A stretch of 64,000 bases of DNA from Mucilaginibacter tundrae (GTDB lineage Bacteria > Bacteroidota > Bacteroidia > Sphingobacteriales > Sphingobacteriaceae). The stretch is from positions 248,001-312,000 of the forward strand of contig NZ_JACCBZ010000006.1 in NCBI RefSeq assembly GCF_013408825.1. The letters are read 5' to 3'. Numbering within the stretch: the stretch's first letter is position 1; each line of letters opens with the position of its first letter. A model generated the notes under the pieces. It made no database searches and had not been told where the DNA came from. It saw nothing but the letters and a program-made list of their open reading frames with translations. Of the stretch, positions 26,021 to 31,503 are shown piece by piece. Both the position numbers and the translations under genes were made by a program.

Positions 26021-26533
26021 ATGAATTCAAATCTTAAAAACAATTTAGATAATCTTACGCCTCATGACCATAAGTATACAGTAAGATTTTGGAAGCCAAT
26101 ATCATCAGGATTCCCTATTATCATTGGTTTTGGTTTTAGCGCATGGCTACTAGTTAAAGATAATGGCACAATTGTCGAAAAGGGATTCATTTTAGCTTTT
26201 GTATTATATTTTGGTGGATTATTAGTATACATTCTTAACAGATATTTGGCTTGCTATAATCAGATAATTGAAATTTCTTGGGCTGACGATACATTTTACT
26301 TTGGAGATAATATACAGATAAATATGTATAAGAAAGCTGATGTTCAACAGGTGCTTATTTGTCAACCCGGCGGAGTAAAGAAAGTTCATTTCTTCTATGC
26401 ATATGTAATTACTTTTAAGGATGGTTCAACAATCAAATTTTCAAATATGTTAATATCTGAAGCTGAAATCATAAACTCGTTTCCAGATGATTTGATTAGA
26501 TATGGTAGTAAGAGTCCTTTTTGGATGTTATAA
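26021..26533 (+). CDS. Hypothetical membrane protein with PH-like C-terminal part
   Basis: 170 aa, not recognised. Two hydrophobic segments (about residues 28-46 and 55-74) are followed by a beta-rich soluble part of about 95 residues whose EISWADDTFYFGD and VITFKDGSTIKFSN strands recall bacterial PH-like domains. Base composition is more AT-rich than in its neighbours. It has no clear operon partner and precedes the pheA leader region. Confidence 0.6.
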   Translation: MNSNLKNNLDNLTPHDHKYTVRFWKPISSGFPIIIGFGFSAWLLVKDNGTIVEKGFILAFVLYFGGLLVYILNRYLACYNQIIEISWADDTFYFGDNIQINMYKKADVQQVLICQPGGVKKVHFFYAYVITFKDGSTIKFSNMLISEAEIINSFPDDLIRYGSKSPFWML

Positions 26534-26617
26534 TCTCATCCAAAAAGAAGTCAAATCAATTTTCACCAAATAAAATACTGTTTCACCTATTTATTTGAAG
26601 AAAATAAAAATTTTCTA

Positions 26618-26647
26618 TTGACAAAAGCTTTTTTAACCGTACATTTA
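26618..26647 (+). promoter_or_regulatory. Promoter of the pheA leader
   Basis: TTG (26618-26620), a 19-bp spacer, then TACATTTA (26640-26647), which fits the Bacteroidota TAnnTTTG -7 box at 7 of 8 positions. Transcription would begin just ahead of the leader-peptide ATG at 26665. Confidence 0.6.
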
Positions 26648-26664
26648 CCGCATACAATAACAAC

Positions 26665-26730
26665 ATGACTTTTAACACCGCATTTTTTTATGGCTATTAC
26701 TTTTACTTTAACAGTAAGAGCCGGGACTAA
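26665..26730 (+). CDS. Phe/Tyr-rich leader peptide of the pheA operon
   Basis: A 21-codon frame (ATG 26665, TAA 26728-26730) with 5 Phe (codons 3, 7, 8, 13, 15) and 4 Tyr (codons 9, 11, 12, 14). Codons 7-15 read FFYGYYFYF. It directly precedes a switchable terminator and prephenate dehydratase, the arrangement of ribosome-mediated attenuation. The last codons and the stop overlap attenuator segment 1 (26719-26728), so a ribosome that finishes translation would mask it. No frame of this size is otherwise expected here. Function is inferred from this logic; it has not been shown experimentally in this sequence. Confidence 0.85.
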   Translation: MTFNTAFFYGYYFYFNSKSRD

Positions 26731-26788
26731 TATGCGATAACAAACATATAGAAACTGAAAAGTCCCGGCCCACAAGCCGGGACTTTTT
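26719..26788 (+). promoter_or_regulatory. Transcription attenuator: antiterminator and terminator hairpins before pheA
   Basis: Segment 1, AGCCGGGACT (26719-26728), is identical to segment 3 (26775-26784). Segment 2, AGTCCCGGC (26761-26769), can pair with either. Pairing 2:3 gives a stem with loop CCACAA followed by TTTTT (26784-26788), a rho-independent terminator. Pairing 1:2 prevents it. With Phe/Tyr plentiful the ribosome reaches the stop codon inside segment 1 and the terminator forms; on starvation it stalls upstream at the Phe/Tyr codons and 1:2 forms. The pheA ATG lies 15 bp downstream. Confidence 0.85.
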
Positions 26789-26803
26789 GCTTTAACAGAA
26801 TTT

Positions 26804-27706
26804 ATGAAAAGCGAAAAACCAAGAGTTGCAATACAGGGTATCCGTGCCTCCTTTCACGAGGAAGCTGCATTTAAATACTTTGGCGAGAATATCGAGACCA
26901 TTGAATGCAATTCTTTTAAGCAAACCTTCGAGGCGCTCCAAAATAAAGAGGCTGATTACGTGGTGATGGCTATTGAGAACAGCATAGCCGGCAGCATTTT
27001 GCCAAACTACGCGCTGATGATGAGCTATGGCTTCCCGATAGTTGGTGAAGTTTACATCCCCATTCAGCTACACCTGATGGCTTTGCCGGGCGTAAAGTTT
27101 GAGGATATTAAATATGTAACCTCCCACCCCATCGCTATCCGCCAGTGTGTTGATTTCTTTGACGAATACCCGCACCTACAAATGGTTGAAAGTAATGATA
27201 CCGCTGCCTGTGCCAAACGCATCAAAGAAGAAAAACTAACCGATACCGTGGCAATCGCTAATACGTTGGCAGCCAACTTATACGGTTTGGAAATTTTAGA
27301 GCGCCGGATCGAATCCAATAAACGCAATTTTACCCGTTTTTTGATCATTACCCATCATGATAACCAGTTAAAGGGCACACCCAATAAAGCATCATTATGT
27401 TTTGAGGTAAGTAACAAAGTAGGTTCATTAGCTAAGGTGCTCAACATCTTCGCGGATCAAAACTTGAACATGAGCAAAATACAATCCATGCCGGTACTGG
27501 GCAAACCATCCGATTATAATTTTTATGTAGATGTAGAATGGAAGGAAACCAGGCAATACGATAATGCCATCAAACAGATATTGAAATACACCCACAACTT
27601 TAACATTTTGGGCGAGTATGAAAAGTTTGAGGAACAACCAAGCATTGATCAGTTCAAAAAACCCGAACAAAAAAAATATATCAAAATAAAAACATTAAGC
27701 AAATAA
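26804..27706 (+). CDS. pheA: Prephenate dehydratase
   Basis: 300 aa monofunctional enzyme converting prephenate to phenylpyruvate. The catalytic domain spans about residues 5-185 (AIQGIRASFHEEAAFKYF, VMAIENSIAGSI, and the active-site TRF in RNFTRFLIITHH). A C-terminal ACT domain (about 198-275) contains GSLAKVLNIFADQNLNMSKI. The Phe-binding ESRP motif of classical enzymes reads QSMP here, so feedback inhibition may be altered. No chorismate mutase domain is fused; that activity is in the next gene. Expression appears set by the upstream attenuator. A tyrA gene is not in the run. Confidence 0.95.
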   Translation: MKSEKPRVAIQGIRASFHEEAAFKYFGENIETIECNSFKQTFEALQNKEADYVVMAIENSIAGSILPNYALMMSYGFPIVGEVYIPIQLHLMALPGVKFEDIKYVTSHPIAIRQCVDFFDEYPHLQMVESNDTAACAKRIKEEKLTDTVAIANTLAANLYGLEILERRIESNKRNFTRFLIITHHDNQLKGTPNKASLCFEVSNKVGSLAKVLNIFADQNLNMSKIQSMPVLGKPSDYNFYVDVEWKETRQYDNAIKQILKYTHNFNILGEYEKFEEQPSIDQFKKPEQKKYIKIKTLSK

Positions 27707-27738: not shown

Positions 27739-28866
27739 ATGAAATTAGAATTAAACATACAACCACTTGAATCCTGGATAAAAACAGGTAAGGAACCTTT
27801 GGTAATAGCAGGCCCGTGCAGTGCCGAAACTGAAGATCAATTAGTAGCTACCGCGCATTTATTGGCTCAAACATGCCGTGTGTCTGCATTACGTGCCGGT
27901 ATATGGAAACCACGTACCCGCCCCGGAGAGTTTGAAGGTATTGGTAGCATTGGTTTAGAGTGGTTAAAACGCGCTAAAGCAGAAACAGGCTTGCCTACCG
28001 CTGTTGAAGTGGCTACCGCTAAACACGTTGAAGAAGCGTTAAAAGCAGGTGTTGATATTCTATGGGTTGGCGCACGTTCAACCGCAAACCCGTTCACCGT
28101 ACAGGAAATTGCTGACGCATTGAAAGGTGTTGACGTACCCGTAATGGTTAAAAACCCGGTAAACCCTGATTTGTCACTATGGATCGGCGCTTTAGAGCGT
28201 ATCAATAACGCGGGTATCACCAAATTGGCAGCTATTCACCGTGGTTTCTCCTCTTACGAAAAATCTGCTTTCCGTAACGAACCAATGTGGGATATCGCTA
28301 TCCACCTGAAAACTTTGGCTCCGCATTTACCAATGATCAACGACCCAAGCCACATCACCGGCAACCGTTCATTAATTGGTTACGTGTCGCAAAAAGCATT
28401 GGATTTGGATATGCAAGGTTTGATGATCGAATCACACATCGACCCTTCAGTTGCGTGGACAGATGCTGCACAACAGGTTACCCCTGCTGCTTTGGTTGAG
28501 ATTATCGACCACCTGACTTTACGTAAACCGGAAGTTCGCGATACCGAAGTAAAAGATAAATTAGCGGAACTACGCAGCCAGATCGACAAAATTGATGATT
28601 TGGTAATTCAAAAAGTAGCTGAGCGTATGCAGATCTCTGAAAAGATCGGCCAGTACAAAAAAGACAACGGCATCACCATTTTACAGGTTAACCGTTGGGA
28701 CGAGATCCTGAACAAACGTACAACTTACGCTAAAGCATTAAAATTAAGTGCAGAGTTCACTGAAAAATTATTAGAATTATTACACAGCGAGTCTATCCGC
28801 AAACAAACCGAAGTGATGAATAAAGATCAGGCCGGACAAGCAGCTGATAAACTAACACACGCTTAA
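27739..28866 (+). CDS. Bifunctional DAHP synthase / chorismate mutase
   Basis: 375 aa. Residues about 1-265 form a type I-beta DAHP synthase (IAGPCSAE, LRAGIWKPRTRPGEFEG, VGARSTANPF, IHRGFSS, NDPSHITGNR), the entry step of the shikimate pathway. Residues about 275-360 form an AroQ-type chorismate mutase (LAELRSQIDKIDDLVIQKVAERMQISEKIG). In such fusions the mutase binds prephenate or chorismate and feeds back on the synthase. The start lies 32 bp after pheA, so the two are co-transcribed. Both domains appear complete. Confidence 0.94.
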   Translation: MKLELNIQPLESWIKTGKEPLVIAGPCSAETEDQLVATAHLLAQTCRVSALRAGIWKPRTRPGEFEGIGSIGLEWLKRAKAETGLPTAVEVATAKHVEEALKAGVDILWVGARSTANPFTVQEIADALKGVDVPVMVKNPVNPDLSLWIGALERINNAGITKLAAIHRGFSSYEKSAFRNEPMWDIAIHLKTLAPHLPMINDPSHITGNRSLIGYVSQKALDLDMQGLMIESHIDPSVAWTDAAQQVTPAALVEIIDHLTLRKPEVRDTEVKDKLAELRSQIDKIDDLVIQKVAERMQISEKIGQYKKDNGITILQVNRWDEILNKRTTYAKALKLSAEFTEKLLELLHSESIRKQTEVMNKDQAGQAADKLTHA

Positions 28867-28887
28867 TAAAATACATTCCGTTCGCAT

Positions 28888-28942
28888 ATTCTCCCCTTGT
28901 AATCAGGGGGGGGATGTCGACGGAGTCGACAGAGGGGTAAAC
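28888..28942. repeat. CTCCCC/GGGG-type intergenic repeat with an 8-G run
   Basis: TTCTCCCCTTGTAATCAGGGGGG with a following GTCGACGGAGTCGAC palindrome and AGAGGGG. It belongs to the same C/G-run hairpin class as the block embedded in the aroA coding sequence 225 bp downstream. Confidence 0.55.
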
Positions 28943-28972
28943 CCACCATGCCGATCAAACCATACTTACATC

Positions 28973-30244
28973 ATGCACCAGAATATCATCCTCACCAAAA
29001 AAACCAAAACCGCCAACGGAACCATACAGCTTACAGGCTCAAAAAGCGAGTGCAACCGCGCCCTCGTGATTGAAGCCCTGAGCGATGGTAAAGTTAAGGT
29101 TGAAAACATTTCTGATGCGGCGGATACGGTGACTCTGCATTCTATTTTAAACGGAAAGCTTCATAAAGTCTCCCCTACCGGGGGAGATTTAGAGGGGGCT
29201 GAAATCAACATTGGCCCCGCCGGTACAGCCATGCGTTTTTTAACAGCCTATTTCGCCGTTCAGGATGATGAGGTGATATTAACCGGCAGCGAACGCATGA
29301 AGCAAAGGCCAATAGGTATTTTGGTTGATGCCCTGCGCCAGTTGGGTGCCAACATCGACTATGAAGAACAGGATGGCTTCCCGCCGTTAAGGCTTAAGGG
29401 AGGCTTTACACAGCTTACTAACCAAATCAATATAAAAGGTAATATCAGCAGCCAGTACATTACTGCGCTGCTGCTTATTGCCGCCAAATTGCCTTTGGGT
29501 TTGGAATTGCATATTGAGGGTGATTTAACCTCGAAACCTTATGTAGAAATGACTTTAGCCATGCTACAGCAGGCAGGCATCCGGCACCAATGGAATGGCA
29601 ATGTGATCAGCATCGCGCACCAGGAATTCGCGCCGACGGTTTTACCTGTCGAGCCGGATTGGAGCGCGGCGTCTTATTGGTACGCCATTGCGGCTTTGGC
29701 TGACGAGGCCGATCTTTTCCTGCCGGGATTAACGCAATACAGCCTGCAGGGCGATAGCGTAATCACCGAGATAATGGCTAATTTTGGCATTACCTCGCAG
29801 TTTAAAAACGGGGGTGTCCATTTACAAAAAGAAGTTAAACCAATTTTCAGGAAGATATTTGATCTGAAGGAATGCCCTGACCTGGCACAAACTGTCATCG
29901 TGGTTTGCGCCGCGTTAGGTCACGAAGCTACTTTTACCGGCCTCGAAACCTTAAAGATTAAAGAAACCGACCGTGTTTTAGCCCTGCAAAATGAGCTGGC
30001 AAAAATTGGCGTTAAACTGATTGAAAAAGGCCAGGTTTACAAGCTTGATTGCAGCGAAAAGCATATCCCCGAAAAGGTTTTCATCAATACTTACGAGGAT
30101 CATCGCATGGCAATGGCTTTCGCGCCTTTAACTTTGATCATACCTGAAATGGAGATTGAAGACGCTAAAGTGGTTGAGAAATCATACCCGGCTTTTTGGA
30201 GTGATTTGGAGAAGGTTGGATTTAGTGTTGAGGTGAAAGAATAA
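28973..30244 (+). CDS. aroA: 3-phosphoshikimate 1-carboxyvinyltransferase (EPSP synthase)
   Basis: 423 aa, adds PEP to shikimate-3-phosphate. Signatures are GSKSECNRALVIEAL near the N-terminus, NIGPAGTAMRFLTAYF (the PEP-binding region, about 79-94), LTGSERMKQRPIG, GNISSQYITALLL and KIKETDRVLALQNEL (active-site KExDR), and YEDHRMAMAFAPL. Residues 66-76 (VSPTGGDLEGA) have no counterpart in the usual family and are encoded by a repeat-like hairpin (29167-29200) inserted in frame just before the PEP-binding motif. All catalytic motifs are intact, so the enzyme is probably active. Confidence 0.93.
   Translation: MHQNIILTKKTKTANGTIQLTGSKSECNRALVIEALSDGKVKVENISDAADTVTLHSILNGKLHKVSPTGGDLEGAEINIGPAGTAMRFLTAYFAVQDDEVILTGSERMKQRPIGILVDALRQLGANIDYEEQDGFPPLRLKGGFTQLTNQINIKGNISSQYITALLLIAAKLPLGLELHIEGDLTSKPYVEMTLAMLQQAGIRHQWNGNVISIAHQEFAPTVLPVEPDWSAASYWYAIAALADEADLFLPGLTQYSLQGDSVITEIMANFGITSQFKNGGVHLQKEVKPIFRKIFDLKECPDLAQTVIVVCAALGHEATFTGLETLKIKETDRVLALQNELAKIGVKLIEKGQVYKLDCSEKHIPEKVFINTYEDHRMAMAFAPLTLIIPEMEIEDAKVVEKSYPAFWSDLEKVGFSVEVKE
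29167..29200 (+). repeat. Repeat-derived in-frame insert within aroA
   Basis: TCTCCCC-TACCG-GGGGAGA forms a 7-bp stem, followed by TTTAGAGGGGGCT. This resembles dispersed C/G-run repeats in intergenic DNA (see 28888-28942), but here it is read as aroA codons 66-76. Confidence 0.6.
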
Positions 30245-30345: not shown

Positions 30346-30408
30346 ACGCGCTAGTACAAAAAATAACAATCGGTGAAATCAATCCTCATCGGTGAAATCA
30401 AAAAGAAA

Positions 30409-31503
30409 ATGGCAGGCAATTCATTCGGACAATTATTCAGGATAACCACTTTTGGCGAATCGCATGGCGAAGCTATCGGCGTAATAATCGACGGCTGTCC
30501 GTCGCAGCTACCTGTTGATTTGGAATACATTCAATCCGAACTGGATAAACGCAGGCCCGGTCAATCCAAGATCACTACTCAGCGCAAAGAAAGCGATACG
30601 GTAAAAATCCTTTCAGGCATGTTTGAAGGAAAAACTACCGGTACCCCCATAGCCATGTTGATCCCGAATGAAGACCAGCGTTCAAAAGACTATACCCATA
30701 ACGTAGATGTATTTCGCCCATCACATGCAGATTACACCTATCAAACCAAATATGGCATTCGAGATCATCGTGGCGGTGGCCGCTCATCAGCCCGTGAAAC
30801 CGCGGCGCGTGTAGCAGCAGGAGCGTTAGCCAAACTGCTGTTAAAAAGCCATGGTATAGAGATCGTTGCACATGTAAGCAGCGTAGGGAAGATCAACGCA
30901 CCAAACGTTGACATAAGCGATGTGCAGGAGTTTATTAACCAGCGCGAGGAAAACATAGTCCGTTGCGCCGACCCTGCCACAGCGGAGGAAATGATCGAAT
31001 TTATTGATAACATCCGCAAAGCGGGCGATACCGTTGGCGGCAAGATCAGTTGCTATGTTAAAAACTGCCCCGTTGGTTTAGGCGAACCTGTTTTTGATAA
31101 ACTTCATGCCGAACTAGGCAAGGCGATGTTAAGCATTAACGCCGTACACGGTTTTGAATTTGGCTCCGGCTTCTCCGGCAGCGAAATGCTGGGTTCAGAG
31201 CATAACGACATATTTGTAAAGGATCATAACGGCGATATCATCACCATTACCAACTATTCCGGCGGTATACAGGGCGGTATCAGCAACGGCATGCCTATCG
31301 AGTTCAAAGTTGCATTTAAACCCGTAGCCACCATCATGAAAGCCCAGGCCACCATCGACAGCGAAGGCAACGCCGCCGAAATATCCGGCAAAGGCCGCCA
31401 TGATCCTTGTGTAGTGCCAAGAGCGGTTGTTATTGTGGAAGCAATGGCTGCTTTGGTTTTAGCAGATCACTGGATGAGGAATAGGAATTCCATTTTAGGA
31501 TAG
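30409..31503 (+). CDS. aroC: Chorismate synthase
   Basis: 364 aa from ATG 30409 ([20 protein letters not shown]); a GTG at 30373 would prefix unrelated residues. This is the last common step of aromatic synthesis, FMN-dependent. Signatures are [63 protein letters not shown], and the C-terminal [18 protein letters not shown]. It lies 164 bp downstream of aroA with a hairpin repeat between, and is probably the end of the pheA operon. Confidence 0.95.

Follow-up and report, generated by a model that had tools for sequence, protein, structure and literature searches.

How the transcription of pheA is governed in Mucilaginibacter tundrae is the question raised by the DNA in front of this gene. In the window, which means here the whole stretch of 64,000 nucleotides that was analysed, the upstream gene ends at 26533 and pheA begins at 26804. 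We consider it highly probable (roughly 0.92) that the interval holds a ribosome-mediated transcription attenuator of the pheA-aro operon. An attenuator is well supported by the sequence itself, by its conservation, by the covariation of a hairpin termed P1 and of the terminator, and by the geometry of the parts; the regulatory response would be that of the mechanism proposed in the last section.

Leader, terminator and operon at pheA

The leader ORF MTFNTAFFYGYYFYFNSKSRD was read on the plus strand at 26665-26730, with the start codon ATG at 26665 and the stop codon TAA at 26728-26730. Nine of its 21 codons specify Phe or Tyr (5 Phe and 4 Tyr), as the preliminary description had counted. The first base of the stop codon is the last base of the ten-base segment A (AGCCGGGACT, 26719-26728), an exact copy of 26775-26784 in the 3' arm of the terminator, and segment B (AGTCCCGGC, 26761-26769) is a pairing partner open to both copies. 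The duplication, the shared partner and a leader stop inside a switch segment, all claimed beforehand, are thus present. In the four-segment numbering, segment 2 is A, the predicted 5' arm of an antiterminator; segment 3 (26758-26769 by folding and sequence) contains B and is the arm common to the antiterminator and the terminator; and segment 4, or C (26775-26787 by folding and alignment), consists of the 3' arm of the terminator and then a T-rich tail beginning at 26785, so that the terminator stem covers 26758-26787. Segment 1 is the 5' arm of P1 (26700-26707), a hairpin that we add to the earlier architecture. This arm is made of the last Phe/Tyr codons, and the 3' arm (26713-26720) runs into A; both arms were located by the alignment of 22 genera and RNAalifold. 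Longer registers of P1 are available, in which GGCT at 26692-26695 also pairs with AGCC at 26719-26722. Behind A, a TATG together with the mini-ORF ATG CGA TAA (26732-26740) occupies 26731-26740 and forms a candidate pause site.

The preliminary description had also reported a promoter. The pair TTGACA (26618-26623) and TACATTTA (26640-26647) is indeed found upstream of the leader on the plus strand, and we take it to be of the Bacteroidota -33/-7 type. The pair alone was not above chance in a simple scan (2 found versus 2.7 expected), and it is the relatives that speak for it: TAnnTT[TA][AG] occurred within 40 nt before the leader start at 181 of 197 loci versus 747 of 3940 shuffles, and TTG usually stood 19 nt upstream of this motif in the genus and the family. 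Since the motif ends 17 nt before the leader ATG in the window, the untranslated part of the leader should be about a dozen bases. Bacteroidota mostly start translation without Shine-Dalgarno sequences, and no such sequence was seen by eye before the leader in the window.

Behind the leader, all on the plus strand, follow pheA for prephenate dehydratase (26804-27706; best NCBIfam model PRK11898 with 204.5 bits, just below the cut-off of 219), a gene for a fusion of DAHP synthase and chorismate mutase (27739-28866), aroA for 3-phosphoshikimate 1-carboxyvinyltransferase (28973-30244; TIGR01356 over the cut-off), aroC for chorismate synthase (30409-31503; PRK05382 and TIGR00033 over the cut-off) and an MFS transporter gene. 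The fusion matched models for both domains, with PF00793 over the cut-off; residues 17-260 resembled DAHP synthase models and residues 268-367 chorismate mutase models, all of these below the curated cut-offs. The start of aroC at 30409 is our choice in an ORF that opens at 30373. We infer that the four named genes, together with the MFS transporter gene, are carried on one transcript. A prephenate dehydrogenase candidate is located elsewhere in the genome, outside this operon. The genome holds one other PF00793 protein besides the DAHP synthase of the operon, which was taken for a putative KdsA, and no DAHP_synth_2 protein was found in it. Between the DAHP synthase gene and aroA lies a GC-rich stretch (28886-28955) with the inverted repeats GTCGACGGAGTCGAC and CCCCTTGTAATCAGGGG; it has a single copy in the window, and among 421 loci it occurred only in the two loci of the same genome that cover this place.

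Spread of the element among relatives

The survey of DNA upstream of pheA took in 92 genomes of the genus, 79 distinct sequences of the family from outside the genus, 39 class loci from outside the family and 24 loci of the phylum from outside the class. It did not extend to 5 of the 95 genus genomes in which pheA occurs, to 14 of 94 family loci, to 11 of 50 loci elsewhere in the class or to 134 of 158 in other classes. The detector demanded a leader with at least five Phe/Tyr codons, segment A and a terminator with a shared arm. It was built after viewing the sequences and loosened once after misses, by which its matches rose from 179/214 to 197/214, and the controls were run with the same detector. 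It matched 88 of 92 loci in the genus, 74 of 79 in the family and 33 of 39 in the class, and, in the other classes, 2 of 4 loci whose pheA was at least 44% identical and 0 of 20 whose pheA was at most 40% identical. Among the controls, it matched 2 of 4680 dinucleotide shuffles of the regions before pheA, one of the 234 reverse strands and two of the 234 stretches taken from further upstream; one of these two was the real element of locus L009, displaced by an inserted ORF. At that locus, a 125-codon ORF (L009:2455-2832, minus strand) sits between the terminator of the attenuator and pheA.

Four genus, five family, three class and two other-class loci were added by eye (L009, L060, L088, L090, L102, L114, L121, L122, L177, L198, L199, L204, L218 and L219); at L199 and L218 the A:B helix is short, of about 5 pairs. 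With these, the element was found at 92/92 genus, 79/79 family, 36/39 class and 4/4 other-class loci of high identity, that is, at 211 of 214 loci overall (197 by the detector and 14 by eye), and it was absent at all 20 other-class loci with the more distant pheA (at most 40% identity). The trp/phe-style switch logic that had been read from the one sequence has counterparts through much of the class. A carrier was present in each of the 22 family genera where pheA was found. When the named genomes were searched for the exact leader pattern, pheA was the gene behind in 116 of 116 matches with a following ORF among the matches listed, the other 4 of the 120 listed being located at the end of the stored DNA; no gene other than pheA stood behind the pattern among these matches.

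The three class loci without the element at pheA (L123, L124 and L210) have pheA directly after a reading frame whose end resembles, by eye, the window's aroA. In the genomes of L124 and L210, the covariance model R1 described below found a Phe/Tyr leader before a DAHP synthase-like gene (L416 and L415, respectively). As the leader stands before this gene where pheA has moved behind aroA, the putative switch appears to remain with whichever gene comes first in the operon. Four loci from other classes of the phylum (L121, L122, L129 and L208) carry the element with a pheA that is 44-47% identical; they would represent either gene transfer together with the switch or mixed assemblies.

Reading frame and pairing of the leader

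Conservation of the leader frame upstream of pheA in relatives had been set beforehand as a test, and the frame proved to be kept, with the Phe/Tyr codons lying in it. The leaders contained on average 8.43 Phe/Tyr codons in frame versus 1.89 and 2.00 in the other frames in the genus (72 distinct sequences), 7.51 versus 1.62 and 1.59 in the family (71 sequences) and 8.28 versus 2.50 and 3.34 in the class (32 sequences), an excess that is partly built in, because the detector demanded Phe/Tyr codons. Less dependent on the detector is the distance from ATG to A, which at 85 genus loci was 53 in 73, 56 in 7, 54 in 4 and 57 in 1. The five loci with one odd base (L035, L041, L054, L075 and L076) end at a TAA just before A, all other distances differing by whole codons, and the leader stop of the genus thus remains near A despite a change of frame.

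The preliminary description had further considered a combined Phe and Tyr sensor to be less usual in a Bacteroidota pheA operon. The mixture is real: two or more codons for each of the two amino acids stand before A in 145 of 146 distinct leader peptides. The element is not confined to a single Bacteroidota operon and runs through much of the class. These counts also bear on a possible, if somewhat unlikely, variant of the attenuator, in which the switch is effectively a sensor of Phe and the Tyr codons are tolerated passengers. A Phe sensor would suit the exchange of Phe and Tyr codons between relatives, the occurrence of Trp codons too (in 30 of 66 distinct family peptides), the fact that the Phe/Tyr codon nearest to A is Phe in 116 of 146 distinct peptides, and a pheA product that leads to Phe only. 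However, none of the 146 distinct peptides is free of Tyr before A, at least two Tyr codons stand there in 145, and the enzymes encoded behind pheA in the window yield chorismate and prephenate, from which Tyr is made too.

The pairings were examined in an alignment of one sequence from each of 22 genera, in which genus g3 was represented by L104, as L102 had been missed by the detector. In the terminator, 97.5% of cells were paired and 5 of 9 pairs were changed on both sides; in P1, 97.2% of cells were paired and 4 of 8 pairs were changed on both sides. Neither result was reached in any of 500 shuffles. P1, formed by the last Phe/Tyr codons with the sequence that leads into A, was predicted unprompted by RNAalifold and is a 1:2 hairpin that overlaps the regulatory codons; in single-sequence folding it received modest support (mean z of about -1.5 to -1.8 in genus, family and class). 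For A:B, 91.9% of cells were paired, a value as high being obtained in 3 of 500 shuffles, and the changes mainly involved G-U pairs. Co-change of A and B in this alignment was weak, with one double change that was matched by 235 of 500 shuffles.

The pairing of A with B was also assessed by swapping partners between loci. A first test used 72 distinct gap-free triples of the 197 loci and located A by its pairing with B, which favours own pairs; in the repeat test, A was placed by its position behind the Phe/Tyr codons, the loci still being those chosen by the detector. Own pairs scored higher than swapped pairs in the class (15.81 versus 11.57, 32 pairs) and in the family (19.47 versus 17.78, 70 pairs), each with 0 of 2000 permutations, and within the genus neither test showed a difference, own pairs being no better (2000/2000). 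The controls for covariation and swapping keep composition and do not keep relatedness. Covariation of the alternative pairing, which had been put forward as a check, was accordingly obtained for P1 and the terminator between the 22 genera and for A:B in class and family, and for A:B it was weak in the alignment and nil in the genus; the support for the predicted A:B helix appears to come from the wider comparison, between families. That A is a copy of C, together with the class and family swap tests, points to an alternative 2:3 pairing that would exclude the terminator. P1 and A:B share few bases and would not be strictly exclusive in the 8-bp register. Taken together, the covariation of P1 and the terminator between 22 genera suggests the segment plan 1:2 / 2:3 / 3:4, as in trp-type attenuators.

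The RNA from 26652 to 26792 reached -38.7 kcal/mol, and 200 dinucleotide shuffles gave -18.87 (sd 2.95; z -6.72), none of them being as good. When the RNA up to 26740 was hidden, the terminator had -22.3 kcal/mol, and the A:B structure, folded from 26716 to just before C, had -16.7 kcal/mol. By computed energy, the terminator was stronger than the stretch from A to B at most loci of the genus (74 of 88), but in the family at only 35 of 74 and in the class at only 6 of 33, which speaks against the switch. Such a ranking would be expected if folding order and not stability decides.

The TATG behind A was present in 64/64 distinct genus, 57/65 family and 17/30 class sequences, and in shuffles it occurred in 130/1280, 201/1300 and 117/600, respectively; in the genus and the family it usually lies 9 nt behind the last G of A. 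Within three codons in the frame of this ATG or TTG, a stop was found in 82 of 118 distinct sequences of the family and genus (19 genera) versus 10 and 23 in the other frames, and when the window's genus was removed, in 44 of 59 versus 5 and 12; the count omits sequences without T[AT]TG, six of which are L100, L142, L156, L166, L184 and L189. TAA, TGA and TAG are all used as this stop. It is missing in 21 of 59 genus sequences and hence is not essential in the genus. The mini-ORF may simply be a fail-safe stop for the third reading frame, because the other two frames also have stops around A. It is quite unlikely, in our estimation, that this conserved minimal ORF (ATG or TTG, usually zero to two codons, and a stop) lets the ribosome re-initiate and park over A, masking A until the terminator is made, and we know of no such holding step in other amino acid attenuators. 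The TATG may possibly also mark a hairpin-stabilised pause of RNA polymerase, which its spacing would fit: P1 ends 11-13 nt upstream of the candidate site, and G-11 G-10, T-3, Y-1 and G+1 at the TATG presumably agree with the pause consensus. A putative stem of TATG with CATA inside the antiterminator loop was considered as another reason for its conservation.

Proposed switch and its place among attenuators

In the mechanism that we propose, a ribosome translating the Phe/Tyr codons of the leader would trail RNA polymerase. With charged tRNA-Phe or tRNA-Tyr in short supply, it would stall at these codons and leave A free; A would then pair with B, no terminator would form and the operon would be transcribed. 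If both tRNAs were charged, the ribosome would reach the stop codon in A and cover A, so that B would pair with C and transcription would end before pheA. Without translation, P1 (1:2) would tie up the start of A and termination would be favoured. Translation of the leader, the answer to tRNA charging and the timing of these steps are what we infer from the arrangement of the parts. The geometry agrees with it. The last Phe/Tyr codon ends 9-10 nt (medians) before A, and a ribosome extends about 15 nt from its P-site codon. With this footprint, a ribosome at the last Phe/Tyr codon leaves at least 6 nt of A free at 193 of 197 loci, and a ribosome that has reached the stop codon masks 5 nt of A or more at 188 of 197; eight of the nine exceptions to masking belong to the 33 class loci and have their stop further downstream of A. 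Clustered codons for the end products in a short ORF, an intrinsic terminator before the first gene and a suitable position of codons and stop relative to segment 2 were all found.

Rfam reported no family at its threshold for the leader; Thr_leader (RF00506, 31.9 bits) and Phe_leader (RF01859, 27.4 bits) both stayed below the gathering score of 55. No T-box family was found in the window at the threshold or in 26550-26900 up to E 10, and riboswitch and T-box readings were dropped, neither kind of family having appeared at either Rfam threshold used. Matches at the threshold elsewhere in the window were DUF805b RNA (RF02914, 51480-51515) and tmRNA (RF00023, 42863-43232). In principle, a structured 5' region that carries a terminator ahead of a biosynthetic operon could also sense a metabolite or a protein, as a riboswitch, a T-box or the target of an RNA-binding protein, with an incidental small ORF. 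This is very improbable, since no riboswitch or T-box family was found at Rfam thresholds or up to E 10, and since the Phe/Tyr codons and the leader frame are conserved whereas the bases between A and B are not. That the terminator, the strongest structure here, merely insulates pheA from upstream transcription, with A a chance copy and the leader unused, is scarcely credible, because the upstream gene ends at 26533 with a promoter-like pair in between, such a terminator would shut pheA off, and both the leader and A have been conserved along with it in the class, A following B between families.

The classic attenuator is the trp operon leader (trpL) of E. coli. Like trpL, the pheA leader has a short ORF with codons for the end product, hairpins 1:2, 2:3 and 3:4 that share arms, a stop codon beside segment 2 and a U-rich terminator before the first structural gene. 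It differs in its Phe/Tyr instead of Trp codons, in the stop lying inside segment 2, in the TATG and mini-ORF behind segment 2, in that no Shine-Dalgarno sequence was seen before the leader, and in its phylum. With Phe_leader, which we take to be the pheA/pheST leader of Proteobacteria, it shares a Phe-rich leader and a terminator before pheA, and the weak match of 27.4 bits extends over the whole model; in contrast, its Tyr codons are as numerous as its Phe codons and its sequence is unrelated at the threshold.

In the same phylum, a transcriptome study of Flavobacterium psychrophilum reported strong indications that amino acid operons are preceded by leader-peptide attenuators, and described structured 5' elements upstream of pheA and hisG that are conserved in Flavobacteriaceae and have no Rfam hits (PMC9723704). 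That pheA element concerns the same gene as ours; the one paragraph given to it in the main text names neither Phe/Tyr codons nor a spread beyond Flavobacteriaceae. Small ORFs in long 5' UTRs of Bacteroides thetaiotaomicron are described, in a remark in PMC7366714, as reminiscent of leader peptides. The uORFC-13-1 motif before aroF, from Acholeplasma and environmental sequences only, likewise has a small ORF and a terminator before a DAHP synthase gene, but it belongs to another phylum and has at least one Phe codon (PMC8632094). An attenuator survey of 2010 (Lopatovskaya et al., cited in PMC4833913) may cover Bacteroidota. No fuller account of a Bacteroidota pheA attenuator was found in the open-licence papers searched. 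This type of switch is classical, and it had already been glimpsed in the phylum; the present comparison adds how far it extends through the class, a plan of four segments with covariation, the constant mixture of Phe and Tyr codons and the third-frame stop.

Other leaders of this sort were observed. Upstream of trpE in the same genome (L364, contig C1, minus strand), a leader MIKIYQTNLWWHQQNWQPDTI with three Trp codons is followed by a GC-rich hairpin and a T run, a predicted trp-type attenuator. Upstream of hisG (L363, contig C4, minus strand), the leader MGRFNLHHLHLHHRHHMATR has eight His codons, and a scan of the stretch read found no terminator behind it. The covariance model R1 was run over 296 genomes of the class and matched 94 at E up to 0.01. 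Ten of 20 further matches had a recognisable amino acid leader and ten resembled chance terminators, and R1 was therefore rejected as a clean classifier. The leaders that it revealed stand before genes that were named from the starts of their proteins: Thr/Ile leaders such as MNFNTSIITTIIITTGINQRG with a terminator before an aspartokinase-like gene (L402, L403 and L404, which also have TTG TTG TAA after the stop codon of the leader); in other families of the class, His leaders before HisG-like genes (L409 and L420) and a small ORF rich in Ile/Val before a branched-chain aminotransferase-like gene (L414); and Phe/Tyr leaders before pheA-like genes in further families (L389, L390, L391, L393, L394, L413 and L421). 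Together with the Trp, His, Thr and Ile leaders, the pheA leader points to a set of such switches in the phylum, unflagged by Rfam at the threshold in the window. Attenuation by a leader peptide works only if the first ribosome keeps up with RNA polymerase. Conservation of such a switch through the class would therefore imply coupling of transcription and translation in these bacteria, at least at leaders of this type, and the pheA switch would be a ready reporter for this question.
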